Assembly: GCF_000069185.1 (NCBI RefSeq)
Contig: NC_010397.1
Location: 4,154,001-4,218,000, forward strand
Direction of reading: 5' to 3'
Source: Mycobacteroides abscessus ATCC 19977
GTDB taxonomy: Bacteria; Actinomycetota; Actinomycetes; Mycobacteriales; Mycobacteriaceae
Length of the DNA stretch: 64,000 bases
The translations under genes and the position numbers were made by a program. This document shows, one piece after another, positions 6,961-53,423 of this stretch. The notes beneath the pieces are model-generated. The model worked only from the letters and a program-made list of their open reading frames with translations, ran no database searches and was not told where the DNA came from. Positions within the stretch are counted from its first letter, which is position 1, and each line of letters begins with the position of its first letter.

Positions 6961-6983
6961 TCGCCTACCCCCTCTCCGAAGGT

Positions 6984-9444: not shown

Positions 9445-9463
9445 CTGAAGGGCCAGGGACAGT

Positions 9464-10717: not shown

Positions 10718-10728
10718 GGATTGCCCCG

Positions 10729-11517
10729 CTATTGAGGCGGCTTGATGATCAGACCTTGCCCGGTGGGCAAGGCAACCACGGACACGCCCAACTCGCGAGC
10801 CACGTCGTCCATGGCGATGCGCTGCTCATCGCGGCCACGGTTTGCGTAGTCGTCCAGGAGCACGAACGCCCCCGGCGACAATCGTGGCCAAAAATACCGC
10901 AGAGTCTCCACTTCCGGTGGAGCACAGTTCATGTCGATATGTAGAAATGCCACCGCATCGGTGTCGACTTCAGCAAGCGTCTCGGGTACGGCCCCGACGA
11001 TGACACGCTGATTCTTCCACTGCGCGAAATTCGCCTTGACGCTGTCCACCGAGCTGACATACATGCCGTTTTTCACGAGTTTGTCGCTCTTTTCGAGCGC
11101 GCCGGCATTACGCTCACCGGCGCTGACGAAGCGTGGATCGAGACCGGCGAAAGTGTCGAGCAGATAGAACGTCTTGCCCAACCGATCCCAATCGAGGTAC
11201 TCCATGATGGCGCTGCTCAAGAATCCGTAGCTGACCCCGCACTCGACGAAATCACCCTTCACCTTGTTGGCGCTGGCCGCCGCCCACAGCCCCACATGTA
11301 CCCGCCAGTGCCACTGGTACCAGTCCGTGCCACCCAGCGCGCGAACGCCGCGTTCATACGCACGCTGGAAGTCGGGATCATCAAGGAACGCATGACTGTT
11401 GAAACAAATCAGTGCATCGTTCGAATAGACTTTAGGGAGAAGTGTGCGCGCAAGCCAATACTCCTTGCGGACCGCCCACAGCTGGATACGGGTACGGAGC
11501 GATAGCTCATCTGCCAC
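10729..11517 (-). CDS. TylF/MycF-family sugar O-methyltransferase
   Basis: This 262-residue SAM- and metal-dependent O-methyltransferase is TylF/MycF-like. GDFVECGVSYGFLSSA is the SAM-binding loop, AFLHIDMN gives the acidic metal-site segment and FVLLDDYANRGRDEQ the DD motif. It most likely methylates a rhamnose hydroxyl of the GPL (an rmt gene); the position (2, 3 or 4) cannot be read from the sequence. The start is GTG at 11517 without a strong ribosome site. It lies 113 bases downstream of atf1 on the same strand and faces gtf2 tail to tail. Confidence 0.82.
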   Translation of the reverse strand: MADELSLRTRIQLWAVRKEYWLARTLLPKVYSNDALICFNSHAFLDDPDFQRAYERGVRALGGTDWYQWHWRVHVGLWAAASANKVKGDFVECGVSYGFLSSAIMEYLDWDRLGKTFYLLDTFAGLDPRFVSAGERNAGALEKSDKLVKNGMYVSSVDSVKANFAQWKNQRVIVGAVPETLAEVDTDAVAFLHIDMNCAPPEVETLRYFWPRLSPGAFVLLDDYANRGRDEQRIAMDDVARELGVSVVALPTGQGLIIKPPQ

Positions 11518-11630
11518 AGCGGAAACGATAGCATCCGTCGTCGGTAAACTGGTGAGAAAGGCTCGCCACGAACCAATTCAGCTTGATCGAATCGCTATGG
11601 CTCACAAGCTGATCGATGTACGTCCTACGA

Positions 11631-14020: not shown

Positions 14021-14069
14021 CGCTTCCAACGCCTTTCGGGTATCGCGGTTCAGTGGAGTGAGTCCGACG

Positions 14070-14876
14070 TCATTCCTTACGCCAAAACACCCCTGTACCG
14101 TCAATTTCCATGATCTCAGCAGTTATCCCATGCTTTGCCCGATAATCCGTGACGGCCTGTTTGCATGAGTCAAGCGCGTGGTAATCGTCGATGATGCAAA
14201 AACCTCCCGGGGACAAACGCGCGTAGAGCCCGTCAAGCGCCTGGATTGTCGACTCATAGAGGTCCCCGTCGAGCCGCAATACCGCGATTTGTTCAATCGG
14301 GGCGTCATGCAGCGTGTCTTTGAACCAGCCCGGCACAAAACGGACCTGCTGATCCAACAACCCATAGCGCTCGAAATTCGCCCGGACATTCTTTTCGGTC
14401 ACCGCCAGGATGGGCGCCGCGAGATGTAGCCGGTCTCCCTTGTCCGCCTTGTAATTGGCAGTGTCCGGAGGTGGCACGCCCTCGAACGAGTCGCAGAGCC
14501 AGACGCTTCGTGTCGTATCCCCGTACGCGGCCAGGACCGCACGCATCAGGATGGACGCACCACCACGCCAGACGCCACATTCGACCAGGTCTCCCGGCAC
14601 GTCATCGGCAAGTACCGTCTCGACGCACTGCTGCAGGCTGGTAAGTCGCTGCATTCCGATCATCGTCAGTGCATCTGCCGGCCAGTCCAGTCCCAAGTCA
14701 CGCTTGTGCGCATCGAACGCGCGCTTGCGCACGAGCACGTAGTCGCCAAATTTGAAAAAGGGACGATGCAGCCAGTTCCAACCCACTGGCACAAGTTCAT
14801 CAACTCCGTATCTGGTGAGGTCCTGCCGAAGCAGGTCCAGATAAGCGGATCGAGTGTCGTAATCGGTCACGGTCAA
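14070..14876 (-). CDS. TylF/MycF-family sugar O-methyltransferase (rhamnosyl methyltransferase)
   Basis: This 268-residue TylF/MycF-family enzyme carries GDLVECGVWRGGASILMRA (SAM loop), VWLCDSFEGVPPPD, VLRLDGDLYESTIQAL (metal aspartate) and GGFCIIDDYHAL (DD pair), a textbook set. It should O-methylate a deoxysugar hydroxyl of the GPL, most likely rhamnose. TTG at 14876 is spaced six bases from a GGGG run; GTG at 14870 is an alternative. It is about 50 bases upstream of gtf1 on the same strand and presumably in the same transcript. Confidence 0.85.
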   Translation of the reverse strand: MTVTDYDTRSAYLDLLRQDLTRYGVDELVPVGWNWLHRPFFKFGDYVLVRKRAFDAHKRDLGLDWPADALTMIGMQRLTSLQQCVETVLADDVPGDLVECGVWRGGASILMRAVLAAYGDTTRSVWLCDSFEGVPPPDTANYKADKGDRLHLAAPILAVTEKNVRANFERYGLLDQQVRFVPGWFKDTLHDAPIEQIAVLRLDGDLYESTIQALDGLYARLSPGGFCIIDDYHALDSCKQAVTDYRAKHGITAEIMEIDGTGVFWRKE

Positions 14877-15086
14877 GAACTGCCCCTATCTCGAAATGCT
14901 GGTGTCCCGTCCCAGCGGTAAGAATAGCCGCCCGCACGACTCCGTCGACACGTTTCGAGCTCGGCTACTCCGTTGTGGGGACTGCATTTTCGGTGGAATC
15001 TGTCAAAAAATCTTATGAACCGATGTCGCCAGATATTTCCGGCTCACGCGGGCGAAGTTTCCACGGTCCTTCATTAATATTCAGGC

Positions 15087-15905
15087 TCATCGGAACACCG
15101 CACGGGGCAGGCTCTTGGGCTTCTCCGCCCGGTGAATCACGACCACCGAGTCGAACACCTCGATCCGGTCGATGATGGTGGTCGCGAGGGGCACCTGAAC
15201 TCCCTCAAGCCTCCTGGGATGACCCTCCATGATCTGGTACACAGAGTTCATCTCCAGATAGTGGGCATGCATCGCGTCCATCAGCCACTTCGTGAAGTCG
15301 ATGAACGATTCACGCTGATCGCGATAGATCGTCCAGTAGTTGGCGCACACATCCTCGACGATGTAGACCCCGCCGGGCCGTAGCCGCGGAAACAGGTATC
15401 TGAACGAGCCGATCATCTGCTTTGGGGTGTGCCCGCCGTCATCGAGAATCGTGTCGAACGGGCCCAACTCGTCGACCACCGCCCCGAGGAATCGAACATC
15501 GGTCTGGTCACCGATACGCACGTGGACGCGATGCTCGGGATCATCGTGCCGCGCGGACTCGGGATTGATATCCAGACCCACGATGGTCGCGTCCGGCAAA
15601 TACTCTCGCCACATTTGCAGCGAGCCACCCCGGTCCACCCCGATCTCCAGCATCCGCTCGGTCCGCGCGAGGGCATGCTGATAAATGGGCAGGTAATGAC
15701 GCAACTTGTGCACCTTCTCGGCGCCCTCGAAGATCCGGCCTATCGGAGTATCCATGGCCGGAGTGTCGTCAGCGGACATCAAGACTTTCCCTGCTAAGTC
15801 CGGCCCGAGGGCATCGAGCATACGACGACGGCCCGCGTAGCGATAGCGCCGTGCGATAAACGGCGGCTTAGGCTGGAGGGTTAGCCGAAAAAGCGGCATA
15901 CTCAC
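15087..15905 (-). CDS. Class I SAM methyltransferase, probable GPL sugar O-methyltransferase
   Basis: This 272-residue protein has a class I methyltransferase core: ERMLEIGVDRGGSLQMW (motif I), ATIVGLDINPESA, FDTILDDGGHTPKQM and LRPGGVYIVEDV. The DDGGH plus EDV pattern resembles macrolide/aromatic polyketide deoxysugar methyltransferases of the MycE/ElmMI type, which act on 2-hydroxyls, a plausible role on GPL rhamnose. The start is GTG at 15905 or ATG at 15899, after an AAAGGG ribosome site. It sits between atf2 and the TylF-family gene on the same strand. Confidence 0.78.
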   Translation of the reverse strand: MSMPLFRLTLQPKPPFIARRYRYAGRRRMLDALGPDLAGKVLMSADDTPAMDTPIGRIFEGAEKVHKLRHYLPIYQHALARTERMLEIGVDRGGSLQMWREYLPDATIVGLDINPESARHDDPEHRVHVRIGDQTDVRFLGAVVDELGPFDTILDDGGHTPKQMIGSFRYLFPRLRPGGVYIVEDVCANYWTIYRDQRESFIDFTKWLMDAMHAHYLEMNSVYQIMEGHPRRLEGVQVPLATTIIDRIEVFDSVVVIHRAEKPKSLPRAVFR

Positions 15906-16011
15906 GGAACCCTTTGCGGTTCTTTACGGTTCGAAGAACGCGATTCGTTCCGAGACTTCCGAAGCGCCATACACATCAGCCTACCGACACGTTCCCGGTG
16001 CTATCGCCAAG

Positions 16012-17142
16012 CTAACTGTCCTCATGCGGCGACAGTGCCCGTTCCCGCAGCGCCACGCTATCCGCGACCGCCGGCTCCACACCGAGAGTACCGGCCGAGG
16101 TGGCGCGCTTCCGTTTAAGCCGAGACTTCAAAGCCAGCGCGCGTTTCTCGATCAGAAACCAGCTGAATGCCGCGGGTATGAGCGTTGCTACTGCTGAAAC
16201 ACCAAAGAATACAAACGGATTCAAGGCGTACAGACCCGCGACGGCCAGGAGCTGCTGAGTGGGCGAGGCGTAAATGTAGACACCGTAGGACAGATCAGTA
16301 TGAATATTCATGCGCTTGTTCTTGATCAGCACACCCGAGACCACCACGGCATAGGCCAGTGGCAACGCCCCGAGCACTCGATAGTCGGGCAACATGCCCG
16401 AAAACAGCACGATCACGACACTCACCGCCACTAATGACCAGCGGGCCGGTATGCGATCGCGCCACTGATACAACAGCGCACCGGCGGAGAACATTATCGC
16501 GCTACGCACCGCCAGCTGTGGGATGGTCCAGAGGCCCGGGAATGTCAGCGGCGGCAGCATGATCGCCGCAATTGTCGCCAGAATCAGTATCACGGGTGCG
16601 GTCCAGCGGCGACTGGCCAGGCCGAGCAAACCCAGACCGGCCACCGCGATATAGCACATCACCTCAAAAACGAGTGACCACAAAGACGCGTTCCAGATTC
16701 CCGGGTACGGGATATCGTGCGGCGTACCGCCCACGTCCAACTGGAGTTGCACCAAGGCACTGTTCTTCAACACGTACTCGACGGGTGCGCTGGAGAACAG
16801 CAGCCTCGCCGCGGAGCCGCCCTGGATCGCCACGCTCAGCGGTGCCACGACAAACGCTGTTATCGCCAGGACGATGTAGTAACCCGGCAGGATACGAAGA
16901 GCTCGCGCTACGAAATACTCACGCACATCGGGATTGCGAAGCCAACTCGCAGTGATCAGAAATCCTGACAGGGCAAAGAATCCGTCGACTCCCACCGAGA
17001 AGAGCAACTGAAGGATCGCTTTCGACTCCACTACCCGCCCGGTGAGAGGAAACGAGTGAAATAGGATCACCTCAGTCGCCAAAGCGAGCCGACATGCGTT
17101 CAGCGCGTTGTTTCGTGAATCGAATACAGAACCGAGCTTCAT
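16012..17142 (-). CDS. atf2: GPL O-acetyltransferase, acyltransferase-3 family (second copy)
   Basis: This 376-residue membrane acyltransferase-3 protein is paralogous to the one at 11631. Shared blocks are VFDSRNNALNACRLALA, LFHSFPLTGRV (conserved His), GVDGFFALSGFLITASWLR, RALRILPGYY and SWFLIEKRALALKSRL. ATG at 17142 follows a strong GGAGGCGC site. It likely acetylates the 6-deoxytalose of the GPL together with the other copy. The C-terminal tail (from about residue 340) is hydrophilic and differs between the copies. Confidence 0.86.
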   Translation of the reverse strand: MKLGSVFDSRNNALNACRLALATEVILFHSFPLTGRVVESKAILQLLFSVGVDGFFALSGFLITASWLRNPDVREYFVARALRILPGYYIVLAITAFVVAPLSVAIQGGSAARLLFSSAPVEYVLKNSALVQLQLDVGGTPHDIPYPGIWNASLWSLVFEVMCYIAVAGLGLLGLASRRWTAPVILILATIAAIMLPPLTFPGLWTIPQLAVRSAIMFSAGALLYQWRDRIPARWSLVAVSVVIVLFSGMLPDYRVLGALPLAYAVVVSGVLIKNKRMNIHTDLSYGVYIYASPTQQLLAVAGLYALNPFVFFGVSAVATLIPAAFSWFLIEKRALALKSRLKRKRATSAGTLGVEPAVADSVALRERALSPHEDS

Positions 17143-17309
17143 GCGCCTCCGCCACTCTTCGCTGGGAGCGTCATCGTATCGCCATCGCAGGGACTGATCA
17201 CGCTTTCCGGCATTTCTGCGTCAGGTTGGAAAAACATTGCCGCAGCCCAGGATTCACAGCAATCATAGGATGCCCGCGGTTATCGATCGATGCCGAGGTA
17301 CCGGCTTGC

Positions 17310-18398
17310 TCAAAAACGATTCGGGCAGTCTTTGTCGATCCATTCGAGCAGCGCATGTAGGCCGTCTTCCAGTGTCCACTTCGGACTCCACCCGAGGCCC
17401 TCGACTGCCGGCGCGATATCGCAGCTCGCCGCGCGCACGTCCCCATCGCGAAACTTCCCGACAACGACGGGTTCCGGCGCCGCGCAGATATCGGCCACCT
17501 TGCGCGCCAACTCGTGGATCGTGGTCGCGGTGCCCGAACCGATATCCAGGGTGCGGCGCTCGGTGGCAGGTGTGTGCACCGCGGCGAACAGCGCATCGAC
17601 AACGTCATCGATGAATACGAAATCGCGGACTATCCGCCCGTCTTCGTAAACCTCCAAGGCTTGTTTCTCACGTGCCAACCGCGCGAACAGGGTGACAATT
17701 CCGGTGTATGAATTGGTGAGCGATTGCCCGGGACCATACACATTCTGCAGCCGCAAGACACTCAGATTGGTGTCGTGCGCTGCGGCCCAGGACGCCAAGA
17801 GGTGTTCCTGCGCAAGTTTTGTACCCGCGTAGATGTTGGTCGGTCTGGGTTCCGTGCGATCAGCACAACTGGAAAGCGGCGTCGCGGATGCGCCCGCCGG
17901 GCCTTGTGGATCCCATTCACCGGCAAGCAGCTGCGCGTGGCTGCGCGGCCGCGGGTAAAAGACCTCCGCGCCGGACTGCCACGCGCCTTCGCCATAAACG
18001 GCTCGTGACGATGCGAGGACCAACTGGTCCGGTACGAGTGCCGAACGGCTGAGGGCATCCAGAAGTTGAGTTGTACCTACTACATTGACGGAGCCGTGGC
18101 GGGTCGCCTCCGAAAGCGACTGTGCTGTGCCCGTCTCCGCGGCCAGGTGGACGACCTGGGACGGCTCAAACAAGCGCAACACAGCATCCCAGTCCGGTGC
18201 GTGGGTGACATCGCCGGTGAACAAGCGCACCGACGCCGGCAGGTCGATCGCCCGCCCCCTGGCGTGGACCTGTGGGTGTAGGACGTCCATTACCGCCACG
18301 TCGTACCCCGCCTGGATGAGGCGGTTGGACAGCGCGGATCCAATGAATCCCGCGCCACCTGAGATGAGCACAGATTTCGACGCACTGGTCTTTGACAA
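17310..18398 (-). CDS. NAD(P)-dependent nucleotide-sugar epimerase, probable dTDP-6-deoxytalose formation
   Basis: This 362-residue extended SDR protein has an N-terminal Rossmann loop SGGAGFIGS, the active-site pair in YAGTKLAQE (Tyr-x-x-x-Lys) and LASSRAVYGEGAW. QNVYGPGQSLTNSYTGI and DGRIVRDFVFIDDV are hallmarks of the dTDP-L-rhamnose 4-epimerase branch, whose product is dTDP-6-deoxy-L-talose, the sugar placed on GPL threonine. A segment of about 35 residues before the catalytic Tyr (YPRPRSHAQLLAGEWDPQG onward) matches the place where that branch has a cysteine-rich insert, but the cysteines are mostly missing. It lies between atf2 and gtf3 on the same strand, with gaps of 167 and 135 bases. 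Confidence 0.83.
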   Translation of the reverse strand: MSKTSASKSVLISGGAGFIGSALSNRLIQAGYDVAVMDVLHPQVHARGRAIDLPASVRLFTGDVTHAPDWDAVLRLFEPSQVVHLAAETGTAQSLSEATRHGSVNVVGTTQLLDALSRSALVPDQLVLASSRAVYGEGAWQSGAEVFYPRPRSHAQLLAGEWDPQGPAGASATPLSSCADRTEPRPTNIYAGTKLAQEHLLASWAAAHDTNLSVLRLQNVYGPGQSLTNSYTGIVTLFARLAREKQALEVYEDGRIVRDFVFIDDVVDALFAAVHTPATERRTLDIGSGTATTIHELARKVADICAAPEPVVVGKFRDGDVRAASCDIAPAVEGLGWSPKWTLEDGLHALLEWIDKDCPNRF

Positions 18399-18533
18399 GC
18401 CGAGCCTCCCGTTCTTTCAGAGCTGTTAGGTGACCGGCACGCACCGGTAATGCGTTCCGGGTGAATGGTATCGATGGTGGTTCCGCTACGCGGGGTTGGT
18501 CTCTCACACTCTGCCGCGGGTAGCCATCCAGGC

Positions 18534-19793
18534 CTATGGGTGGGAAGCCTTTGCCTCCAGCAGGTCGGCTGCCTTGCTGACGCTATCGTGCGGCTTCGAC
18601 ATATGAGGGGCGATCGCGCGCGCCCGGGCCGCACATTCCGGGGTGAGAATCGTGCGTAGGTCCGAGACCAGAGAGTCGCGGGTTGTGGTCGAAAACCGCC
18701 GGGAGGCACCCACTCCCATACGCCTTAGCTGGTTCCCCCAGAACGGCTGATCACCAACGGTCCACAGAATCAGCGTGGGCACTCCTGCACGCAGACTGGC
18801 CGCCGTGGTGCCCGATCCGCCGTGATGAACGATCGCGCGACTCACCGGAAAGACCGCCGCGTAGTTCACCACTCCGACCAGTTTGACGTGTGGCGAGGTT
18901 TGGACGCCGCTGAAGTCGGTCGCCCCGGCACATACCAACGCGCGCTCTCCCAATTCTGCGCACGCTGAACCGATCATCTCGACTGTCTCGGCCGGAGATT
19001 CAACGGGGATGCTCCCCGAGGCAAAGCAGATCGGCGGGGGCCCCGAGGCTATCCACGACATCACCTCGTCATCAGCCGAGGTCGTCAGCTCCATGGTGAG
19101 AGCACCCACGAAAGGCCGTCGGCCTCCGTATTTCGCCCACTCTTCGGCCAGCCCCCGGAAGCACACGGCGTCGTAGGCCTGAATTTCCAGCGAATTGCGC
19201 TGACCTATACGCTGCGGCGACGGGCTGGTCGCCTGTGGCAATCCGAGATGTCGTCGTTGGGCATCTTCGGCCCCCTTGGTGACCCGCCAGGTCAGCCAGT
19301 CGTAGGCGGTCATCCCCGTCCGGGTCAGCATCGGCGGTAGCACCGGGAAAAGCTGACCATTGGGACGCCACGGCATCGTGTGTAGTGCGACCAACGGGAT
19401 CCCATAGAACTCAGCAACATTGGCTGCCGGCTCCTCATAGCCCACACTCGTGGACAGCAGGTCGGCTCCCTCTGCCACCGACACCAGGGTTTCACTCATT
19501 TCCGACCATTGTTCGGTCACCAGCTTCAGCGCCTGCCGACACAGTGCCACCAAGTCCTGCAGCCGCCAGAAGTGGCGGGTCCACGACGTCCACAAGTCGC
19601 GGTACTCATCGAGCTGCGGGCCCACGTGGATTCCGTAGGGCACCGCGGACAGCCCGACCGAGCCGGCAAAACCGATCAAGTCGGGAGGGACGGCCATGCG
19701 CACTTCATGACCCCGGCGCTGCAACTCTCGCCCAACAGCAACGGCAGGTTCGATATCGCCGCGAGTGCCATAACTTGCCATGGCAAATTTCAT
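18534..19793 (-). CDS. gtf3: GPL glycosyltransferase, GT-B / UGT-like (Gtf3-type)
   Basis: This 419-residue third paralogue of the locus has MKFAMASYGTRGDIEPAVAV at the start and AIVHHGGSGTTAASLRAGVPTLI in the C-terminal domain. ATG at 19793 follows GGGGAGG at a long spacing and aligns with the two other Gtf proteins; the frame extends upstream to 19856 without similarity. Position next to the epimerase and divergent from rmlA fits gtf3, which adds an extra rhamnose to make triglycosylated GPL in other mycobacteria; this role is inferred. It is the first gene of a long leftward run (gtf3 to the methyltransferase at 10729). Confidence 0.82.
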   Translation of the reverse strand: MKFAMASYGTRGDIEPAVAVGRELQRRGHEVRMAVPPDLIGFAGSVGLSAVPYGIHVGPQLDEYRDLWTSWTRHFWRLQDLVALCRQALKLVTEQWSEMSETLVSVAEGADLLSTSVGYEEPAANVAEFYGIPLVALHTMPWRPNGQLFPVLPPMLTRTGMTAYDWLTWRVTKGAEDAQRRHLGLPQATSPSPQRIGQRNSLEIQAYDAVCFRGLAEEWAKYGGRRPFVGALTMELTTSADDEVMSWIASGPPPICFASGSIPVESPAETVEMIGSACAELGERALVCAGATDFSGVQTSPHVKLVGVVNYAAVFPVSRAIVHHGGSGTTAASLRAGVPTLILWTVGDQPFWGNQLRRMGVGASRRFSTTTRDSLVSDLRTILTPECAARARAIAPHMSKPHDSVSKAADLLEAKASHP

Positions 19794-20255: not shown

Positions 20256-21122
20256 TTGCGCGGCATCATTCTCGCAGGCGGCTCAGGCACTCGCCTACAC
20301 CCGATAACGACAGGCGTCAGTAAGCAGTTACTGCCGGTCTACGACAAACCGCTGGTCTACTACCCCCTGTCCACCTTGATCATGGCGGGCGTGCGCGACA
20401 TCCTGGTAATCACCACACCCGCCGATGCCCCGGCTTTTGAGCGCCTACTCGGCGACGGTTCAGCGTTCGGGATCAATCTGAGTTATGCCGTGCAACCCCA
20501 GCCAGAGGGGCTGGCACAGGCTTTCGTCATCGGGGCGCAACACATTGGCACCGACACCGCGATGCTCGCGTTGGGGGACAACGTGTTCTACGGGCCCGGC
20601 CTGGGCACGAGCCTGCGCAGGTTCGAGAACATCGACGGTGGGGCAATATTCGCCTACTGGGTAGCCAATCCGTCGGCATACGGCGTGGTCGAATTCGATG
20701 CCGCAGGAGTTCCCCTGTCCCTGGAGGAGAAGCCCGCGACACCGAAATCTCATTACGCCGTACCGGGGCTGTACTTCTACGACAACGATGTCATCGAGAT
20801 CGCCCGGTCGCTTCAGAAGTCGGCACGCGGTGAATACGAAATAACGGAGATCAACCAGATCTACCTGGATCAAGGTCGGCTCTCGGTCGAAGTCCTGCCG
20901 CGCGGGACCGCTTGGCTGGACACCGGAACGTTCGATTCGCTACTGGATGCGAGCGATTACGTCCGCACCATCGAACGCCGTCAAGGTCTGAAAATTGGCG
21001 TTCCGGAAGAAATTGCGTGGCGTGCCGGTTTCATCAATGACGATCAACTTGCCGCCCGTGCCCAAAAGCTACTCAAATCTGGGTATGGAAGTTACCTACT
21101 TCAGCTCTTGCAGCGGAAATAG
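20256..21122 (+). CDS. rmlA: Glucose-1-phosphate thymidylyltransferase RmlA
   Basis: This 288-residue enzyme makes dTDP-glucose from glucose-1-phosphate and dTTP, the first step to dTDP-rhamnose and dTDP-6-deoxytalose. [18 protein letters not shown] is the nucleotide-binding loop; [33 protein letters not shown] and EEKPATPKS follow in the standard order, and length equals the mycobacterial RmlA. The start is TTG at 20256 with TAGGAG nine bases upstream. A second rmlA for cell-wall arabinogalactan is expected elsewhere; this copy would be dedicated to GPL sugars. Confidence 0.95.
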
Positions 21123-30474: not shown

Positions 30475-31464
30475 CTAGCCCTCCAGCCGCGCGAGATGTT
30501 CCGCGTTGTACCGATCCCCCGCTGCCGCTGCAAGACATTCGAGGCGGACAAGATGCTCCGGTAGCAGTTCGATATCCACCGCGCCGACGTTCTCGTTGAC
30601 ACGCGAGACCTTCGTGGTCCCGGGTATCGGCACGATATCGTCACCACGAGCGAGCAACCACGCCAACGCTACCTGCGCGCTGGTCGCCCCTATCGAGGAC
30701 GCCACCGAACGAACCTCCTCCACCAGCGCCAAGTTCGCATCGAAGTTTTCTGCACTGAACCTCGGCTGTTCTCTACGGAAGTCTCCCTCGGCCAATTGGT
30801 CTCGCGAGCCGATGGCGCCGGTGAGAAAGCCGCGGCCGAGCGGCGAGTAGGCGACCAGGCCAATGCCTAGCTCGCGGATGGTCGGCAAGATCTCGTCCTC
30901 GATATCGCGGGTCCACAACGAATATTCGTTCTGCAGCGCCGTGATCGGATGAACGGCATGCGCCCGGCGTATCGTCCCGGCAGCAGCCTCCGACAACCCG
31001 ATATACCGAACCTTCCCTTGTTGAACCAGCTCGGCCACCGCTCCGATGGTGTCCTCGATGGCGACATTCGGGTCGACACGATGCTGGTAGTAGAGATCGA
31101 TGTGGTCAACACCGAGCCGCCGTAACGATCCTTCGACAGCGGTCGAGATGTTGCCGGGAGTGCTGTCGAGGACCTGCGATGCACCATTGCCGTGAGACAC
31201 CAATCCGAATTTGGTGGCAAGGACAACCTCGTCACGCCGGCCCGCGATGGCCCTACCGACGAGCTCTTCATTAACGAAGGGACCATAGATCTCTGCGGTA
31301 TCAATCAAGCTGACGCCTAGGTCCAGCGCGCGCCGGAGCGTGTCGATGGAAGTCGCTTCGTCGGGCCCGCTTTCGCTACCAATCGCACGGTAGTAGGCGG
31401 ACATCGACATGGCGCCCAGGCCGATCCTTGACACAGATAACTCACCGAGCCACGTGTGTTTCAT
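30475..31464 (-). CDS. Aldo/keto reductase
   Basis: This 329-residue NADPH-dependent aldo/keto reductase belongs to the AKR13-like branch. The catalytic tetrad is visible: Asp55 and Tyr60 in [15 protein letters not shown], Lys85 in VLATKFG, His128 in DLYYQHRVD. The C-terminal [16 protein letters not shown] is the NADP-binding segment. ATG at 31464 follows GGAGGAAAG and lies one base after the MerR-gene stop, so it is co-transcribed with and probably controlled by that MerR regulator. The natural substrate (aldehyde, ketone or quinone) is unknown. Confidence 0.92.
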
Positions 31465-31465: not shown

Positions 31466-31885
31466 TCAGTTCTTCTTTCCTCCGGCGGATTGAGCCGAGG
31501 CACCATTGACCGACTCCGTGTAGTAGGCGACCTTGAAGTCGACGACCCTGAGGTCCTCGGTGAGCCGCTCCATTGCGGCCAGAATCCGGACGCGCTGCGC
31601 GAACAGCAGCTCCAAGCGCTCGGCGTGGGTCTCCTCACCACCCGCGAGGAGTTCGATGAACCTCCGCATATCGCGTACCGGCATGCCGGTACGGCGTAAC
31701 CGCAGCATCAGCTGGACACGTTCGATGTCGTCGTCACTGAAACGGCGCCTGCCACCGGCGTCGCGGGGGACCCGCGGAAAGAGGCCCTCACGCTCGAACC
31801 AGCGCAGCGCATCGATCGACAGTCCGGTTCGCTGGGCGACGTGCGAGATGGGGAAGCCGGCATGGGATGGCTCACTTGTGCTCAC
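31466..31885 (-). CDS. MerR-family transcriptional regulator
   Basis: This 139-residue MerR-family protein has the winged HTH ([21 protein letters not shown] then [19 protein letters not shown]) and a C-terminal dimerisation helix ([20 protein letters not shown]). It has no cysteines, so thiol or metal sensing is unlikely. The start is GTG at 31885. A perfect 20-base dyad directly upstream and the adjoining aldo/keto reductase suggest autoregulation and control of AKR expression, as in AdhR/YhdM-like electrophile-responsive systems; the inducer is unknown. Confidence 0.92.
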
Positions 31886-31893: not shown

Positions 31894-31929
31894 GGTAGAA
31901 CCTGGAGTCGACTCCAGGTCAAGTGTCAG
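31894..31929 (-). promoter_or_regulatory. MerR-type promoter with 20-base perfect palindrome
   Basis: The palindrome ACCTGGAGTCGACTCCAGGT occupies 31900-31919. Read leftward it sits between a TTGACC -35 (overlapping its left end) and a TTCTAC -10-like element, the layout of MerR-controlled promoters in which the dyad fills the spacer. The GTG of the MerR gene is 15 bases beyond the dyad. Confidence 0.85.
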
Positions 31930-32114
31930 ATTCCGCGCAAGACGCCACCAAAGTTGTCGCAGGTACCGCGCCCGGCGCCATCTGCACCGTTGACACGTTC
32001 TCGATGCGGCCGCACGATCGGTCCATGCGCTTGGTCCAGGACTGTAGGTAGGCGCGCAATCCCGTTTGCGCGCTATCGGTTTCACCCCACCCCGCCAAGC
32101 GAAGGTACCCCCAC

Positions 32115-33653
32115 ATGTCTTCCGCAACTCATCAACTCACCGTCAACGGCAGATCGCTGCGGACGGCCGACTCTCACGGACTCGAACGCGACGCCATCGG
32201 CTCCTGGGGCGTCTTCGCCCAGGGACTCGCGGCGGCCGCGCCCAGCGTCGCGGTCGCGACGGTGCCGTTCTCGCTCTTCGTGGCGGCCGGCAAGGGCGCC
32301 GCCTGGTCGGCGGTGATCGGCCTGGTAGCGGTTGTGCTGATCGCCACCACGATCAGCTTCCAGGCCAAACGGACGGTGTCCTCGGGCTCACTGGGTACGT
32401 ATGCCGGCAATGGGCTGGGCCCCGGCGCCGCCTACGCCGCAGGCTTCAGCCTGCTCATCGGGTACATAACCTTTGCCACCACCGGGACCCTCGGCGGCGT
32501 GCTGTACTTCGAGTCCTTCCTCGACGTCATTGGAATTCATTCGGAAGCAAACGGATTCAAACTCGCCTTGGTCGCATTGGTTGTCGCATTCGCCGTCTAC
32601 CTGCCATACCGCGGCGTCTCAATCTCGGCGAAGTACGAGCTCATCTTCGAAATTATCGCCACCGCACTAATTCTCATCATCATCGTGGCCTCATACATCA
32701 GCTATGGCTGGCGCATCGACACCGAACAGTGGGCGCTCACGAATCTGGGCAACAGCACCACCTTCATCGCGGCTGTCACGGCAGTGGGCGCGTACGCGGG
32801 GTTCGAGAGCGTGGCATCCCTTGGCGCCGAGTCCAGGGATGCGCACCGCACCATTGCCCGGTCGCTGCTGCGTGTTGTGCTGATTATCGGCGTGCTGTAC
32901 ATCCTGGCCACCTATCCGCAAATTCTGCAGTTCCGGAACATAGACGGCGACAGCGCGATACTTCCGCAGATTGCCACGAATGCCGGTGTGGCATGGGCCA
33001 TCTATCCGATAAGCCTTGCCGTGACCATAGCGTTCATCGTATTCGTCACCGCCGTGATCAATTCGGCCGCACGCGGTCTCTTCACTCTCGCACACGAGGG
33101 CGCGCTCCCGGCAGTACTCACGCGGGTACACCCGACCTATAAGACCCCTGTCGCGGGCATCTTCCTCATCGGGATCATCGCGACGGCGTTCTCCGTTACC
33201 GCCACCCTCAGCTCGGTGGGCCGCCTGGTGTTCGATGTCTATGGAAACTACGTGGCCAACTGGGGATTCCTGGTCAGTTATCTGCTCGTGGTGGTGGCCA
33301 CACCCATCTGGCTGTACCGAATCAAGGCGCTCACCCCGGCACGACTGTCGGTCTCGGCCGCCGCCACCGTGGCCATCGGGTACGTGATCTTCAGCAATTT
33401 CTATCCGATTCCCAAATTCCCGTTCAACATCCTGCCGCTGATATTCGGCGCCATTCTGCTCGCTGGACTGCTGCGCTACTGGTATCTGCGCATCCTGCGG
33501 CCCGAGGTAGCAGCCCGGATCGGTTCCATCCAAACACTTTCCGAGTCCGAAAAGGAACGCCTGGCTGAACTCGGCATCCTCGAAGTTCTCCACGAGGAGC
33601 CCGCCGCAGAGCCCGTACCCGAACCCGTCGATACAGGAGTTCTCGTCAAATGA
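32115..33653 (+). CDS. APC-superfamily amino acid/polyamine permease
   Basis: This 512-residue permease has about 12 membrane segments. The N-terminal GLERDAIGSWGVFAQGLAAAAPSVAVA and the GAYAGFESVASLGAE motif are typical of the APC family; the C-terminal 50 residues are cytosolic and acidic. It should import an amino acid, amine or small organic acid. The ATG follows GAAGG. It heads an operon whose next two junctions overlap (ATGA, GTGA), so the imported compound is probably the substrate of the flavoproteins or acetyltransferase downstream. Confidence 0.88.
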   Translation: MSSATHQLTVNGRSLRTADSHGLERDAIGSWGVFAQGLAAAAPSVAVATVPFSLFVAAGKGAAWSAVIGLVAVVLIATTISFQAKRTVSSGSLGTYAGNGLGPGAAYAAGFSLLIGYITFATTGTLGGVLYFESFLDVIGIHSEANGFKLALVALVVAFAVYLPYRGVSISAKYELIFEIIATALILIIIVASYISYGWRIDTEQWALTNLGNSTTFIAAVTAVGAYAGFESVASLGAESRDAHRTIARSLLRVVLIIGVLYILATYPQILQFRNIDGDSAILPQIATNAGVAWAIYPISLAVTIAFIVFVTAVINSAARGLFTLAHEGALPAVLTRVHPTYKTPVAGIFLIGIIATAFSVTATLSSVGRLVFDVYGNYVANWGFLVSYLLVVVATPIWLYRIKALTPARLSVSAAATVAIGYVIFSNFYPIPKFPFNILPLIFGAILLAGLLRYWYLRILRPEVAARIGSIQTLSESEKERLAELGILEVLHEEPAAEPVPEPVDTGVLVK

Positions 33654-34918
33654 CCACCGCCACCACCTCACCAGTCCATGCCTATCAAGGAGTCAGTGAT
33701 ACCGAGTTCTCCGAGTGGGAGCAGGTGGCCGCACGCGTCGCCGGCGAGCTGTCCGCCACCGCGCTGACGCGCGACCGGGCCAATCAAAATCCCATTGCCG
33801 AGATTGAGCTGCTGCGCCGGTACGGCCTGTTGTCATTCGCCACTGCGCGCGAATTCGGCGGCGCCGGAGGAAGTTTGGTGCAAGCACTGCAGCTCGGGCG
33901 CATCATTGCTGCCGCCGACGGGTCAATAGGACAACTGTTGGTCTACCACTACTCCAACGGAGTGTGGACCTACATCCTCGGGTCGCCGACTCAACGCGAA
34001 TACATCTCGCGTGGCGTGGGCGGGCACGGCTGGTTTCAGGGCAGTGTCAGTAATCCACGCGATCCGGGTATCACGGTCACCCGAACCGAAGAAGGTTATC
34101 GCGTCAACGGCAAACGGACCTTCGCCACCGGGGTCGCCGTGGCCGACTTGATCACCGTCCTCCTTTATGAAGCCGAGCCCATCAACGCAATCATTCCGAG
34201 CGAGCGGGACGGACTACGGTTCAACGACGACTGGGACAACCTCGGACAGCGGCTTACAGCCAGCGGCAGTGTGGAATTCGACAATGTTCTGCTGCGTCAT
34301 GACGAGGTGCTCACCGGGCTTGACGAGTACTCAGGGCTCGATGGATCGCGCGAGCGCCGCGACGGCCTGCGCGCGCTGTTCAGCCAACTGATCTTCGTGC
34401 ATCTGTATCTCGGCATCGCCGAGGGCGCGCTGGCTGCCGGCGTGGCATACATAAGAGACAAGGGCCGTCCCTGGCCAGAGGCGCACTCGACCGACGTGAC
34501 AGAGGATCCGTACCATCAACAGCTGCTGGGTCGCCTGTCGGCAGGGATCGCCGCGGGTGTTGCCCTAGCCGATTCCGCTACAAAGGAATTCGAGCAGGCT
34601 TTGGCGTTCGGTGAAGCACCGACGGAGGCACAGTGGGGCGCACTGGCAATCCGGGTAGACCAGGCGAAGTCGGTAGCCACCGAGATATCCCTGGACGTGA
34701 CGCACAACATCTATCAGGCCACCGGCGCCCGGTCGACCGCCAACTCCGTTGGTTTGGATATCTATTGGCGCAACGCACGCACGCACACCACGCATGACCC
34801 ACTGCCATACCGTCAGCGCGAGATCGGCAGGCACCTGCTGACCGATCAATGGCCTTCACCGCGCAGCCTCAATGGCCTGGGGCGTCTCGCCGAAACAACA
34901 CAGGGCAAGAAGCCGTGA
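33650..34918 (+). CDS. Acyl-CoA dehydrogenase-fold flavin monooxygenase (DszC/SfnB-like)
   Basis: This 422-residue acyl-CoA dehydrogenase-fold protein has LLRRYGLLSFATAREFGGAGG and GHGWFQGSVSNPRDPGI in the N-terminal half, YRVNGKRTFATGVAVADLI in the beta domain, and a helical C-terminal domain ending RTHTTHDPLPYRQREIGRH. The last motif and the lack of a clear catalytic base favour the reduced-flavin-dependent monooxygenases of the DszC/SfnB type (sulfur or nitrogen oxygenation) over a true acyl-CoA dehydrogenase. A separate flavin reductase would be needed and none is in the operon. It overlaps both neighbours. Confidence 0.82.
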   Translation: MTTATTSPVHAYQGVSDTEFSEWEQVAARVAGELSATALTRDRANQNPIAEIELLRRYGLLSFATAREFGGAGGSLVQALQLGRIIAAADGSIGQLLVYHYSNGVWTYILGSPTQREYISRGVGGHGWFQGSVSNPRDPGITVTRTEEGYRVNGKRTFATGVAVADLITVLLYEAEPINAIIPSERDGLRFNDDWDNLGQRLTASGSVEFDNVLLRHDEVLTGLDEYSGLDGSRERRDGLRALFSQLIFVHLYLGIAEGALAAGVAYIRDKGRPWPEAHSTDVTEDPYHQQLLGRLSAGIAAGVALADSATKEFEQALAFGEAPTEAQWGALAIRVDQAKSVATEISLDVTHNIYQATGARSTANSVGLDIYWRNARTHTTHDPLPYRQREIGRHLLTDQWPSPRSLNGLGRLAETTQGKKP

Positions 34919-36096
34919 CCGACATCCGTTTCCTACAGAGCCGGGCGGAACACGAACGCGCCTTCACGGTGTTCTGGCGCGCCATGGTCGGGCTACCCGC
35001 GCTCGGAGCCGTCGCAGCGGACGAATTGTTAGAATTAGGGCGGTATTTGGGCGCATTCGTGCAGGGAGAACTGATCGGCGGCGCCGATTCGTACACCAGC
35101 TGGCTCACCGTTCCCGGTGGATCCCGAGTTCCGCATGCGGCGGTCACTCATATCGGTGTATTACCTACTCACACCCGGCGCGGAATCCTCACCGCCTTGG
35201 TCACCCGGCAGCTCACCGATATCGCGGGCCGGGGCGAGATTGTCGCCAGCTTGCGTGCTTCCGAAGCGGTCATCTACCGCCGCTTCGGTTATGGGATAGC
35301 GACCAGCAGTGCGACTTATCGCATTCAGCGGCGCCGGGCGGCGCCGCTGCGCCCCATCGATACTGGGGCAATCGCCCTACTCGACGCGGCAGCATCGCCC
35401 GAAGGGCTTGCGGCAATTTACGAGCGAGCGGCGTGGACGGGATCCGTGGCGCGTCCGCCGCAATGGTGGCGCTTGCATGAGCTTTTCGACGCCGCCGACC
35501 CCGTCAAGCCTTATGTAGTGACGCACCCGGACGGTTATGTGCGATACCGGCCGCAGGACACCGCCGAGTGGTTCTCCAGCAGCGCGCGCACCATATCCGT
35601 TGACGATCTTGTCGCACATAGCGACGAGGCGTACCGGGCGCTGGTCGGCCATCTGCTGGATCTGGACCTGGTCGACGTCATCGAACTCGGACCGCGCCCC
35701 ATCGATGACCCGCTCCCCCATCTGGTGACCGATCCCCGGGCCGTGGCGGTAGCCGGGATCCGCGACGAGACGTGGCTGCGACTGGTCGATGTCGAGGCGG
35801 CATTGGCGGCGCGTACTTACACCGACGGCGCACCGGTGGTCATCGAGGTACAGGACACCCTCCTCCCACACAACGCGGCACGTTTCTCGGTGAGTTCCGA
35901 CAAGGTGCGGCGCACCCAGCACACTCCCGACATTTCGGTCGACGTCGCCGCCCTCGGATCGGTCTATCTCGGCGGCAACACCTGGACACGACTTGAGCGA
36001 GCCGGTCTGGTGTCCGCGCAGTCGCCGGGAGCGATCCGCGCCGCCGATGCCCTCTTCTCCACCGGTACGCAACCTTTCGCAGGTACCAACTTCTAG
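34915..36096 (+). CDS. eis1: Eis-family GNAT N-acetyltransferase (Eis1-like)
   Basis: This 393-residue Eis-family protein has an N-terminal GNAT domain with VTHIGVLPTHTRRGILTALV (acetyl-CoA loop), a second GNAT-like domain (about 150-290) and a C-terminal SCP-like domain ending in Phe, whose carboxylate takes part in catalysis in this family. The conserved YRRFGYG tyrosine is present. GTG at 34915 overlaps the previous stop. M. abscessus has two Eis proteins; position points to Eis1, which is not the main aminoglycoside-resistance enzyme. The operon context (permease, two monooxygenases) suggests an amine-containing nutrient or toxin as substrate, which is inference. Confidence 0.88.
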   Translation: MTDIRFLQSRAEHERAFTVFWRAMVGLPALGAVAADELLELGRYLGAFVQGELIGGADSYTSWLTVPGGSRVPHAAVTHIGVLPTHTRRGILTALVTRQLTDIAGRGEIVASLRASEAVIYRRFGYGIATSSATYRIQRRRAAPLRPIDTGAIALLDAAASPEGLAAIYERAAWTGSVARPPQWWRLHELFDAADPVKPYVVTHPDGYVRYRPQDTAEWFSSSARTISVDDLVAHSDEAYRALVGHLLDLDLVDVIELGPRPIDDPLPHLVTDPRAVAVAGIRDETWLRLVDVEAALAARTYTDGAPVVIEVQDTLLPHNAARFSVSSDKVRRTQHTPDISVDVAALGSVYLGGNTWTRLERAGLVSAQSPGAIRAADALFSTGTQPFAGTNF

Positions 36097-36105
36097 GAGT
36101 CTGCC

Positions 36106-37437
36106 GTGTCATCCAGGAACGGTCGCCAGCTTCATCTGCTGGCCTTTGGCAACGTGCGCGCGGGCGGCGCATGGCGGCTACCCGGCGTGCGGAACGGCCC
36201 GGCCAACCAGCTCAACACCCTGGTCGCCACCGCGAAGGCGGCCGAGGCTGCCAAGTTCGACGCCGTCTTCTTCGCCGACGGTCTCAACTTCGGGCCGAAA
36301 GCAACCTGGGCCCACAAATCCACCGAGGACTTCGAACCACTCACGGCCACCTCCTACCTGGCCGCGGTGACCGAACGCCTCGGCCTCGTGGTCACCGGTT
36401 CGTCAACATTTCAACCGCCTTACCACCTTGCCCGCCAACTGTTATCGCTCGATCATCTGAGCTCGGGGCGGGCCGGGTGGAATCTTGTGACAAGCTTTGC
36501 GCAGGCCGCTGCCGCCAACTTCGGCGAGCGGGGTTTCCTCCCGCACGATGAGCGCTACCGGCTGGCCGAAGAGACGTTACAAGTAGTGAAGTCACTGTGG
36601 CATTCCTTGGAGCCGGATACCGTCATCGAGGATCGCGCGGCCGGAATCTACAGTGATATCAACAAGATTCATGTCGCCAACCACGATGGGGAATTTCACA
36701 AGGTCAAGGGACCGCTCGGGGTAACCCCCTCCCGCCAGGGGCATCCAGTGATATTTCAGGCCGGATCGTCCACCACCGGAAGAGCCTTCGCCGCCAGACA
36801 TGCCGAGGTGGTCTTCACCGGACAGACCGACGTCGAACGGGCCAAGAACTTCTACCGGCAACTCCACCAGGAGGCGCGTGCCGCCGGCCGAACCTTCGCT
36901 CCCCTGGTAACCCCGTCGCTCGGTGTGGTCGTCGGCTCGACAGAGGCCGAAGCACTCGCCGCGGAAAGTACGATCTACGAACACTTCATCCCCGAGTACC
37001 AAGCGGGTTGGCTGCTCGAAGTCGATGTCAACGTCGTCGGCGCCGACCTGGACGGCCCGGTACCGGCATCGGCTTTCCCGGACAGCACCGAAACCCATCA
37101 GACCGCCCTGGCGGGATACAAACACCTTGCCACCGTGGGTAATCCCACGGTCAGAGAGTTCCTCTACCGCACCTTGAATGCCTTCGGCACCCGGTTTGTC
37201 GGTTCCGCGGAGCAGGTCGCCGATCAGATCGAGCTCTGGTTCTCGGAGGGAGCCGCCGACGGCTTCATTCTGAGCACATCGGGACTGCCTGGCCAGTTCG
37301 AGCTCTTCACCGAGCATGTGGTACCAATCCTGGTGCGACGAGGCCTCTTCCGCGCCGAGTACACCGGGTCGACGCTGCGCGAGCATCTAGCCTTGCCATG
37401 GCCTGTCCCGGCACGCCCGCCCGCCCTGCTCGCCTAA
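36106..37437 (+). CDS. NtaA/SnaA/DszA-family FMN-dependent monooxygenase
   Basis: This 443-residue bacterial-luciferase-fold monooxygenase has RQLHLLAFGNVRAGGAWRLP at the start, FDAVFFADGLNFGP, LDHLSSGRAGWNLVTS, NFGERGF and HPVIFQAGSSTTGRAFAARHAEVVF, the signature run of nitrilotriacetate/dibenzothiophene-sulfone monooxygenases. It uses FMNH2 and O2 to cleave C-N or C-S bonds. GTG at 36106 follows TAGGAG, nine bases after eis1. Pairing with a DszC/SfnB-like partner in one operon suggests sequential oxidation and cleavage of a sulfur- or nitrogen-containing compound. Confidence 0.9.
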   Translation: MSSRNGRQLHLLAFGNVRAGGAWRLPGVRNGPANQLNTLVATAKAAEAAKFDAVFFADGLNFGPKATWAHKSTEDFEPLTATSYLAAVTERLGLVVTGSSTFQPPYHLARQLLSLDHLSSGRAGWNLVTSFAQAAAANFGERGFLPHDERYRLAEETLQVVKSLWHSLEPDTVIEDRAAGIYSDINKIHVANHDGEFHKVKGPLGVTPSRQGHPVIFQAGSSTTGRAFAARHAEVVFTGQTDVERAKNFYRQLHQEARAAGRTFAPLVTPSLGVVVGSTEAEALAAESTIYEHFIPEYQAGWLLEVDVNVVGADLDGPVPASAFPDSTETHQTALAGYKHLATVGNPTVREFLYRTLNAFGTRFVGSAEQVADQIELWFSEGAADGFILSTSGLPGQFELFTEHVVPILVRRGLFRAEYTGSTLREHLALPWPVPARPPALLA

Positions 37438-51842: not shown

Positions 51843-53423
51843 ATGGCTGGTCAGTATTCGGTCCCGGGGAAGCGTCACTCGCTGCGTAGATACGTCGCAA
51901 CCATCACGGCGGTAGCGGCGACATGCACGGTCCTGGCACCGCTGGCGATGGAATCACGGACCATCGCCTCGACTCTCGCCTCGTATGTCATCGGAATCGG
52001 TGGCAACAACGACGGCGCAAGTGCCAACATCCCCCGCAAGCTCGGTGGTGCTTACAGCGTCGATTACCATCCGGTCTCGTATCCCGGAGCCATCTGGCCG
52101 GTCAGTGGCCTCACCGCGCCCACATTCAAAACATCTGTGGCACAAGGGCGCACCAACCTCAATGATGAGATCGTCACAGCAGGAAACCAGCCGATCACCA
52201 TCGTCGGGTACTCGCTGGGCGCCGTCGTGGTGAGCAAATCGCACAGCGACCTACTGCAGCGGTACCCGGGCGGAAATCCCAACATTCAGTTCGTGCTGAT
52301 GGGCAGCGCGAACACACCCAACGGGGGCATCTTCGCCCGATTTCCCTGGCTCAAGATTCCGTTGGCCGATATCGAATCCAACGGCGCTTGGGAACCCGAC
52401 CAGTTCAAAACAAAGGTGATCAACACCGAATACGACACCTACGGCGACTTCCCCGCGTACTTCAATCCGCTCGCACTCGCCAATTCCATTGCCGCGATCC
52501 AATACGCGCATCCCGATGCGTACTACGACCGCATCGATCCCGCCGCTCTTGACGATCCCGACAACCCCAACGTAGTCAAAACGGTGCAGGGCAACACCAC
52601 CTATTACCTGGTACGCGCCGAGCACCTACCGTTGCTGCAACCACTGCGCGATCTCACCAATCCCATCGGGGCGTCCTTCGTACTCGACGCCATCGAGCCC
52701 ACCCTGAGGGTGTTCATCGATATGGCCTACGACCGCGACACCGGCCCGGGAACCACCACACAGTTCAGCTTCTTCACCCCGTCGAAAAACATCGTCGACG
52801 CGTTCAACAAGCTACCTACCGCCATTGCGGAAGGCGCCCACAACGTCGAGAACGGCCTTGCGGGTGCAACACCCAAACAGTCGGCGTCTCCTGAGAAACC
52901 GGCCAGCCCTCCTGTCCCCCAGCCAGGCCCCACGAATCCCGGGTCGGCAACAACCCAGATACCGGCACCGGAGGCTCCCACACCATCGGTTGTCTCCCTC
53001 AGCACCGCGGAGCCACCCGCACCGCCTGCGTCGGCCAAGGCCGCCGACCCCACGGCCATCTCCGTCAGTACCGCGGGCGCCTCCACAGCCCGAGACCAGG
53101 ACTTCCAACCTGATACGAAGCCCGATCCGAAGAGCACGCCGCCTCCGACAAAGGACTCGGTTGGGGAAGCCGACAAGTCCAAGAACACCCTGAAACCCAC
53201 ATTGCGGCTTCCTAAACTCCCTGTGGCACAACCCGGAACGGCACCGAAGAGCCCCAAGTTCCCGTCACTCAAGAACCATCTCAAGTCCGTTCCGGGGCTC
53301 AGCGAGAAGAAGAACCCCGCCGCAGACGCGTCGAGCAAGCATTCACAGCCCGCGAACGCACCGGCACATACCAGCGATAAGACCTCGGACCACGCCTCCG
53401 AAACAGGGCGCGGCGCTGCCTAA
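51843..53423 (+). CDS. PE-PPE-domain alpha/beta-hydrolase with proline-rich tail
   Basis: This 526-residue protein has an N-terminal hydrophobic segment (about 15-40; signal-like or anchor), then a PE-PPE (PF08237-type) serine-hydrolase domain (about 50-320). The nucleophile is Ser124 in TIVGYSLGAVVV, followed by VLMGSANTPNGGIFARFP and the YDRIDPAAL region. It lacks PE or PPE domains themselves. Residues from about 335 to the end are low-complexity Pro/Ala/Ser/Lys-rich, probably disordered and surface-exposed. Family members are cutinase-like esterases; substrate is unknown. Confidence 0.83.
   Translation: MAGQYSVPGKRHSLRRYVATITAVAATCTVLAPLAMESRTIASTLASYVIGIGGNNDGASANIPRKLGGAYSVDYHPVSYPGAIWPVSGLTAPTFKTSVAQGRTNLNDEIVTAGNQPITIVGYSLGAVVVSKSHSDLLQRYPGGNPNIQFVLMGSANTPNGGIFARFPWLKIPLADIESNGAWEPDQFKTKVINTEYDTYGDFPAYFNPLALANSIAAIQYAHPDAYYDRIDPAALDDPDNPNVVKTVQGNTTYYLVRAEHLPLLQPLRDLTNPIGASFVLDAIEPTLRVFIDMAYDRDTGPGTTTQFSFFTPSKNIVDAFNKLPTAIAEGAHNVENGLAGATPKQSASPEKPASPPVPQPGPTNPGSATTQIPAPEAPTPSVVSLSTAEPPAPPASAKAADPTAISVSTAGASTARDQDFQPDTKPDPKSTPPPTKDSVGEADKSKNTLKPTLRLPKLPVAQPGTAPKSPKFPSLKNHLKSVPGLSEKKNPAADASSKHSQPANAPAHTSDKTSDHASETGRGAA

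Follow-up and report, generated by a model that had tools for sequence, protein, structure and literature searches.

What does the acetyltransferase Eis1 of Mycobacteroides abscessus act on, and why is it encoded together with a permease and two monooxygenases? The window analysed here, by which we mean the whole stretch of 64,000 nucleotides from M. abscessus ATCC 19977 (contig NC_010397.1, positions 4,154,001 to 4,218,000), carries eis1 (MAB_4124; PMC6839843) as the third of four genes on the forward strand (Table 1). From their arrangement, a sequence-only reading had proposed a metabolic rather than a drug-modifying or virulence-linked role, with the import of an amine- or sulfur-containing compound, its oxidation by two reduced-flavin enzymes and an N-acetylation. 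Our results support such a role and favour the sulfur branch, as indicated by the composition of the proteins, the conserved context of the permease gene and the published RNA-seq co-variation of the first two genes. Together with the relation of one monooxygenase to YtnJ, these observations lead us to propose that the operon is probably a sulfur-limitation pathway for the uptake of an S-substituted amino acid, with an S-alkyl- or other S-substituted cysteine as the most likely compound, and for the release of its sulfur.

Table 1. Positions in the window of the four operon genes and of the inverted repeat in their leader
Feature	Position	Strand	Remarks
APC-superfamily amino-acid permease, MAB_4122	32115..33653	+	512 aa; PF13520
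DszC/SfnB-like flavin-dependent monooxygenase, MAB_4123, PDB 8cda	33650..34918	+	422 aa
Eis1 N-acetyltransferase, MAB_4124, PDB 6yca	34915..36096	+	393 aa, GTG start
NtaA/DmoA-family flavin mononucleotide (FMN)-dependent monooxygenase	36106..37437	+	443 aa, GTG start; TIGR03860
Inverted repeat GGCGCGCAA-N5-TTTGCGCGC, candidate operator or leader hairpin	32051..32073	.	41 bases before the permease start

Layout and composition of the operon

As read in the sequence, the permease and DszC-like genes overlap by four bases (ATGA), as do the DszC-like gene and eis1 (GTGA), and nine bases separate the eis1 stop (36096) from the GTG start of the NtaA-like gene (36106). The tight coupling of the four genes, already claimed in the sequence-only reading, is borne out by these junctions, by translation and by family assignment. 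It is more than chance, since the same order recurs in the five closest loci and the same kinds of genes are found, in other orders, in further genera. The published names MAB_4122 (putative amino acid permease) and MAB_4123 (probable monooxygenase; PMC13340314) match, with MAB_4124, the order of the genes, from which we infer the name MAB_4125 for the NtaA-like gene.

The four proteins are nearly free of sulfur, and this composition is common to their relatives. Counted without the start residue, the permease, the DszC-like and the NtaA-like proteins each lack both methionine and cysteine, and Eis1 contains a single methionine and no cysteine, which amounts to one methionine in 1,766 residues as compared to 42.6 methionine and cysteine residues expected. 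The expectation is based on the pooled Met+Cys content (2.41%) of 46 window genes called by codon usage, and it is low, as three of the four operon genes are among these 46 (Eis1 fell out of the calling). A Poisson estimate made by hand gives a probability near 1e-17 for one such residue or fewer; however, since residues are not independent, paralogues are the better control. Among the 19 PF13520 (APC) permeases found in the genome, the operon's contains 0.00% Met+Cys and the other 18 contain 1.71-5.07%. For the acyl-CoA-dehydrogenase-fold proteins (10 with loci, of 39 match rows), the operon's member is again at 0.00%, the next at 0.23% and the rest at 1.47-4.99%, and of the five long NtaA-family matches in the genome, two are at 0.00% and the others at 0.66-1.86%. 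Depletion of sulfur amino acids is known from proteins made under sulfur limitation. Oxygenases of Gordonia induced on organosulfur sources, for example, are reported to contain 0.88-1.33%, compared to 3.01% in the proteome (PMC7661421). Outside the operon, the poorest called genes of the window are located at 20256-21122 (+) and 51843-53423 (+), with 0.70% and 0.76%.

Conservation of the permease neighbourhood and of the Eis1 clade

A scan with a six-sequence alignment of the permease yielded 59 loci in other genomes, in which the neighbouring genes were called by tblastn with reference proteins, as annotation by longest open reading frame had performed poorly in the high-GC DNA of the Eis neighbourhoods, where antisense frames won. 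The permease copies are 67-93% identical in mycobacteria and Gordonia and 53-61% identical in the other genera scanned. An acetyltransferase gene is present on the same strand within 9 kb of the permease gene in 56 of the 59 loci, and this near-constant presence is a robust observation. The type of acetyltransferase varies: 18 loci code for an Eis-type protein only, 36 for a non-Eis GNAT only, two for both (L128, L139) and three for neither, with contigs ending at or just past the permease in two of the last three (L129, L149).

The entire operon with its flanks is found in the same order in the five closest loci (L098-L102), three of which come from named Mycobacteroides and two from Mycobacterium sp. 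In six Gordonia, genes for Eis, an SfnB/DszC-like protein, a short NtaA-related protein and an NtaA-like protein follow each other in this order, together with the permease gene. In loci from Actinomadura, Amycolatopsis, Dactylosporangium and Paractinoplanes, the permease and Eis genes are accompanied by genes of the NtaA-like, DszC-like or SsuD-like kind in different arrangements, and in Williamsia the permease and Eis genes are adjacent, with the remaining genes on the opposite strand. In the Mycolicibacterium-type mycobacterial loci, another GNAT occupies the acetyltransferase slot. The three that were read are 329 residues long and match Acetyltransf_1/7 and no Eis domains in Pfam, and their solved relatives are weak. 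In L111, the one cluster that was fully typed, the GNAT adjoins an NtaA-like protein 67% identical to that of the window; the same cluster codes for a DmoA-like protein with DmoA as its best solved relative (460 bits) and for an SfnB-like protein (251.7 bits, under the cut-off).

Further genes for sulfur metabolism are found in some of these neighbourhoods. SsuD-like genes lie on the same strand in six of the 59 loci, and sulfate ABC genes lie downstream on the same strand in nine; these code for a binding protein, which scores above the TIGR00971 cut-off in L111, and for a transport permease, and were named subI and cysT by context. In these nine loci (L107, L111 at 4245-19192, L112, L116, L122, L123, L126, L153 and L154) the GNAT cluster is located upstream, lepA being present on the far side within the stretch covered in all except L126, and we read the GNAT cluster with the sulfate ABC genes as an island serving both organic and inorganic sulfur. 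In the alphaproteobacterium Pseudogemmobacter hezensis (L139), a permease with 61% identity, an Eis-like protein with 34% and a GNAT with 40% are encoded in one stretch, which also carries SsuD-like and peptide ABC genes; it is possible that this cluster was acquired by horizontal transfer.

The depletion of sulfur is seen across the permease-anchored loci. Taken over the best tblastn stretch per locus, in sets some of which mix close and distant family members, the median Met+Cys content is 0.00% for the permease (n=53) and the NtaA-like protein (54), 0.26% for the DszC-like protein (n=51) and 0.31% for the GNAT (38), compared to 3.08% for the control protein LepA from the same loci (n=24).

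To place Eis1 among its relatives, 251 genomes of the family were searched, 170 of which contain a homologue at E<=1e-20. In a tree of 77 rows that remained of 81 once duplicates had been merged, and which leaves out the M. tuberculosis Eis, Eis1 falls into a clade of 22 proteins with support 98/98. The clade spans six bacterial families, and 20 of its 22 members have the permease in their locus, the exceptions being L038 and L065. As many tree rows were found via the permease, the fair count is that of the 60 Eis-anchored loci, consisting of the 50 best matches besides the window's own, nine chosen lower rows and the Eis2 gene of this genome; a few of them are cut by contig ends. On the question whether eis1 is conserved without its flanking genes, which the sequence-only reading had named as a finding that would speak against it, this count gives a mixed picture: the permease gene is present in five of seven loci of the clade and in none of the other 53. 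Linkage to the cluster is therefore rejected as a general property of Eis1-like proteins. In-clade Eis proteins have a median Met+Cys content of 0.26% (n=21), as compared to 1.49% for those outside (n=55; Mann-Whitney p = 8e-7, uncorrected for kinship). Eis2 of M. abscessus lies outside the linked clade and contains 2.47% Met+Cys in its matched part, compared to the one residue in Eis1.

Several Eis proteins outside the clade are also sulfur-poor, with 0.23-0.50% Met+Cys (L083, L085, L086, L087, L041, L058, L067 and L128), and some of their loci carry peptide ABC, DszC-like or NtaA-like genes. Other Eis branches may hence be sulfur genes as well, or the depletion may not be specific to the cluster. 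NtaA-like neighbours are found in several outside-clade loci (L041, L044, L070, L075, L076 and L080).

A proposed sulfur-scavenging route and its alternatives

The permease belongs to PF13520 (AA_permease_2; 74.5 bits, cut-off 27). The DszC-like protein has an acyl-CoA-dehydrogenase fold and is identical over 422 residues to the chain of PDB 8cda. Its best NCBIfam matches are DszC and SfnB, neither of which it reaches at the level of the equivalog (254.2 bits for NF043015, cut-off 850; 248.4 bits for TIGR04022, cut-off 430.9), and its next solved relatives are DszC (237 bits), a thermophilic DszC (218) and methanesulfinate monooxygenase (184). DszC oxygenates thioether sulfur. When 348 genomes of the order were searched for DszC, 98 gave a match at E<=1e-30, and, the window aside, the best full-length match among those listed is 38-42% identical. 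Eis1 contains the domains PF13527 (Acetyltransf_9), PF17668 (Acetyltransf_17) and PF13530 (SCP2_2), with 77.6, 75.7 and 67.0 bits, all above their cut-offs; it aligns along its whole length with PDB 6yca (864 bits) and shares the Eis fold with M. tuberculosis Eis and M. abscessus Eis2, solved Eis structures being among its matches. The NtaA-like protein is a member of TIGR03860 (440.6 bits, cut-off 279.7). Compared with PDB sequences alone, it is closest to YtnJ (287 bits), which we take to be the CmoJ of S-alkylcysteine salvage, followed by DszA (257), a nitrilotriacetate monooxygenase (251), an oxidoreductase with this family in its name (235), DmoA (225) and EDTA monooxygenase (193). ScmK is absent from the names listed, and we do not claim orthology with CmoJ. 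Of 8000 candidates scored in a search for homologues, 7548 had E<=1e-40, and the best 120 of these bear only generic names.

With a permease of the amino-acid type and with YtnJ, DszA and DszC as relatives of the two monooxygenases, the four proteins would appear to take up a thioether amino acid, acetylate it, oxygenate its sulfur and cleave its C-S bond. We propose that the permease would import the S-substituted amino acid, which Eis1 would N-acetylate using acetyl-CoA. The DszC-like enzyme would then oxygenate the thioether sulfur with reduced flavin, and the NtaA/CmoJ-like enzyme would cleave the C-S bond oxidatively, yielding an aldehyde and N-acetylcysteine sulfenate or sulfinate. Finally, reduction and deacetylation by enzymes encoded elsewhere would release cysteine or sulfite. 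The substrate, the order of the steps, the products and the deacetylase are inferred; the compound that is cleaved may be a sulfoxide, as in a Cmo-like route leading to the sulfenate, or a sulfone, as in a Dsz-like route leading to the sulfinate.

To the sequence-only reading, no pathway with such a combination of enzymes was known. This is not borne out, as a pathway of this kind, in which a compound is acetylated, S-oxidised, cleaved at the C-S bond and deacetylated, is already in print with the same kinds of enzymes. The S-alkylcysteine salvage of Bacillus subtilis is described as acetylation, S-oxidation by CmoO, cleavage of the sulfoxide C-S bond by CmoJ, reduction and deacetylation, and CmoJ as a homologue of YxeK and DszA that produces an aldehyde and N-acetylcysteine sulfenic acid (PMC10863075). 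The ytn cluster has been implicated in the breakdown of S-methyl- and S-benzylcysteine, and acetylation, breakdown and deacetylation have been called a general strategy and likened to the use of a protecting group (PMC12757645). Like this system, the M. abscessus operon combines an N-acetyltransferase with two reduced-flavin monooxygenases. What is new is the Eis-family acetyltransferase, the DszC-like candidate S-oxygenase, the APC permease, the absence of a deacetylase among the genes found in the cluster, and proteins that are nearly free of methionine and cysteine.

Published RNA-seq data point in the same direction. In strain GZ002, MAB_4122 and MAB_4123 are given as lower in a sigH mutant than in the wild type, by log2 -4.4 (~20-fold) and -4.9 (~30-fold), respectively (PMC13340314, Table 2). 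A like pattern is given there for MAB_2461-2463 (sulfate/sulfonate ABC), MAB_2459-2460 (hypothetical), MAB_2217/2218 (SsuB/SsuA), MAB_1060 (alkanesulfonate monooxygenase), MAB_4234c (oxygenase using reduced FMN, FMNH2), MAB_1422c (acyl-CoA dehydrogenase) and MAB_1183 (rhodanese-like). The reading of this set as one of sulfur genes is ours and not that of the authors.

Two other sites of the genome touch on this set. At 4302066-4305474 (L199, L200), two further NtaA-family genes lie close together, the second coding for a protein with no internal methionine or cysteine in 352 aa from the first start codon; by gene numbering they lie close to MAB_4234c, a gene whose co-variation with the operon has been published. 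At 1426182-1427321 (L230), a second DszC/SfnB-like protein with one methionine and no cysteine in 427 aa is encoded, which by numbering is probably MAB_1422c, a member of the co-varying set.

Several observations weigh against the proposed scavenging route. The difference between the sigH mutant and the complemented strain was small and not significant for all these genes (PMC13340314); as the change was not restored, the co-varying sulfur-type genes would represent a set that was high in the wild-type culture and not a SigH regulon. That experiment was not a test of sulfur supply, the word "sulfur" is absent from the paper's main text, and its Table 2, which lists the most extreme changes only, has no entry for eis1 or the NtaA-like gene. 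In L143, which has a full neighbourhood, the permease gene stands alone without the other operon genes. The DszC-like partner outside Mycobacteroides is 24-33% identical to that of the window, save for 69-70% in two Actinomadura. Furthermore, the exchange of the acetyltransferase is structured by lineage, the 36 GNAT-only loci all being mycobacterial, and thus reflects few independent events. The proposed S-oxygenase is DszC/SfnB-like and not of the kind of CmoO, presumably a luciferase-like protein. An M20 deacetylase was not found by tblastn in the 59 permease-anchored or the 60 Eis-anchored loci with five reference proteins as queries, one of which was actually an antisense frame. Two amidohydrolases are encoded elsewhere in the genome (TIGR01891, 327 and 288 bits, cut-off 153.75), a family to which ScmP and YtnL presumably belong, but the five M20 proteins of the genome, with 1.70-2.89% Met+Cys, are not sulfur-poor. 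A flavin reductase is absent among the four operon genes, and no search was made for one elsewhere.

The composition of the proteins and the co-variation would fit any sulfur-starvation pathway, and it is conceivable, though unlikely, that the operon desulfurises an organosulfur compound other than an amino acid, be it a sulfone, a sulfinate, a sulfonate or a thiophene-type compound, much as the Dsz, Sfn or Ssu systems do, with Eis1 acetylating something peripheral. In line with this, one monooxygenase has DszC as its next solved relative and the other has DszA as its second, and SsuD-, DmoA- and SfnB-like genes are found in sister clusters. Similar to the Dsz (4S) desulfurisation by DszC and DszA, the operon pairs a DszC-like protein with an NtaA-family C-S monooxygenase; in contrast to it, the operon lacks a desulfinase, codes for a permease and an acetyltransferase, and its DszC-like protein stays far under the DszC equivalog cut-off. 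The transporter is of the amino-acid type, and an acetyltransferase kept near the permease in nearly all loci would be needless for a sulfone pathway.

A special case of amino acid scavenging, which we regard as improbable, is that the substrate is S-(2-succino)cysteine, a cysteine damage product, and the operon an actinobacterial version of the Scm (Yxe) pathway of B. subtilis. This pathway follows the same logic of acetylation and NtaA-type monooxygenation (PMC9706529, PMC12757645), using an FMN monooxygenase in an acetylate, cleave and deacetylate strategy, and one of its steps is likewise filled by different enzymes across genomes. However, it is the cleaving enzyme that is exchanged in the Scm pathway (ScmK or 2SL) and the acetyltransferase in operons of the M. 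abscessus kind (Eis or another GNAT); in addition, the described Scm route has one monooxygenase and no S-oxygenase, its deacetylase ScmP is linked, and our sequence comparison did not include ScmK.

Catabolism of an amine or amino-polycarboxylate such as nitrilotriacetate, EDTA or a polyamine as a nitrogen source, suggested by the family name NtaA and by the nitrilotriacetate and EDTA monooxygenases among the solved relatives, is very improbable, as nitrogen limitation would not be expected to yield sulfur-free proteins, YtnJ and DszA score above these two enzymes, and sulfur genes are found in several sister clusters. That Eis1 is a drug-modifying or virulence protein with accidental neighbours is equally hard to credit: the eis1 mutant is reported to lose about one log of survival in macrophages at day 5, but the gene is suppressed in macrophages and not replaced by M. 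tuberculosis eis (PMC6839843), Eis1, unlike M. tuberculosis Eis and Eis2, does not modify aminoglycosides according to a review citing Ung et al. 2021 (PMC9308005), and the linkage of the genes extends over the six families of the clade. The modest macrophage defect could be compatible with sulfur scavenging, although it is not predicted by it.

Flanking elements and implications for Eis1

The arms of the inverted repeat in the operon leader are identical in four of six aligned leaders (window, L098, L099, L100), altered in L101 and one base shorter in L102. At zero or one mismatch, the repeat occurs at a single site in the genome, and no regulon was found for it: with up to three mismatches there are 15 matches in the genome, compared to 14 for a reversed control pattern, and the repeat is therefore at most operon-specific. 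A copy with three mismatches (genome 2103369-2103391) lies about 30 bases 5' of a match to an M20 hydrolase (2103425 onwards), such matches being at chance level. An Rfam scan of the window at the gathering threshold gave no match.

Next to the operon, a perfect 20-base palindrome, ACCTGGAGTCGACTCCAGGT, at 31900-31919 is located directly upstream of a gene for a MerR-family regulator (31466-31885, -), of which it is likely the operator. The regulator is NmlR-like (77 bits, under the cut-off), was seen beside the operon in no other loci than the closest five (L098-L102) and precedes a gene for an aldo/keto reductase (30475-31455, -). As a cleavage of the CmoJ type releases an aldehyde, this reductase could be related to the operon.

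Neither a sulfur role for Eis1 nor the use of an Eis-family enzyme in a salvage pathway of this kind is described in the literature searched, which comprised open-licence PMC papers only and yielded no direct experiment on sulfur supply, and the endogenous substrate of Eis2 is described as remaining to be established (PMC11980559). We speculate, while considering it doubtful, that a large Eis branch, wider than the clade of Eis1, is metabolic and acetylates sulfur amino acids for scavenging, with the drug-modifying and virulence-linked Eis proteins as side lines; the operon, selected for almost no sulfur, would then represent a third route, of the Dsz type, in which N-acetylated amino acids undergo S-oxygenation to the sulfone and C-S cleavage to the sulfinate.

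Taken together, the clear sulfur signature of the four-gene cluster reduces the candidate substrates of Eis1 to a few small compounds, and the reportedly narrow active site, to which the review ascribes the lack of aminoglycoside modification, suits a small substrate. The signature is also a warning not to list eis1 among the resistance genes. If the proposed pathway is true, the strategy of acetylation, cleavage and deacetylation would extend from Bacillus to the Actinomycetota, where two of its slots would be filled by other enzymes.

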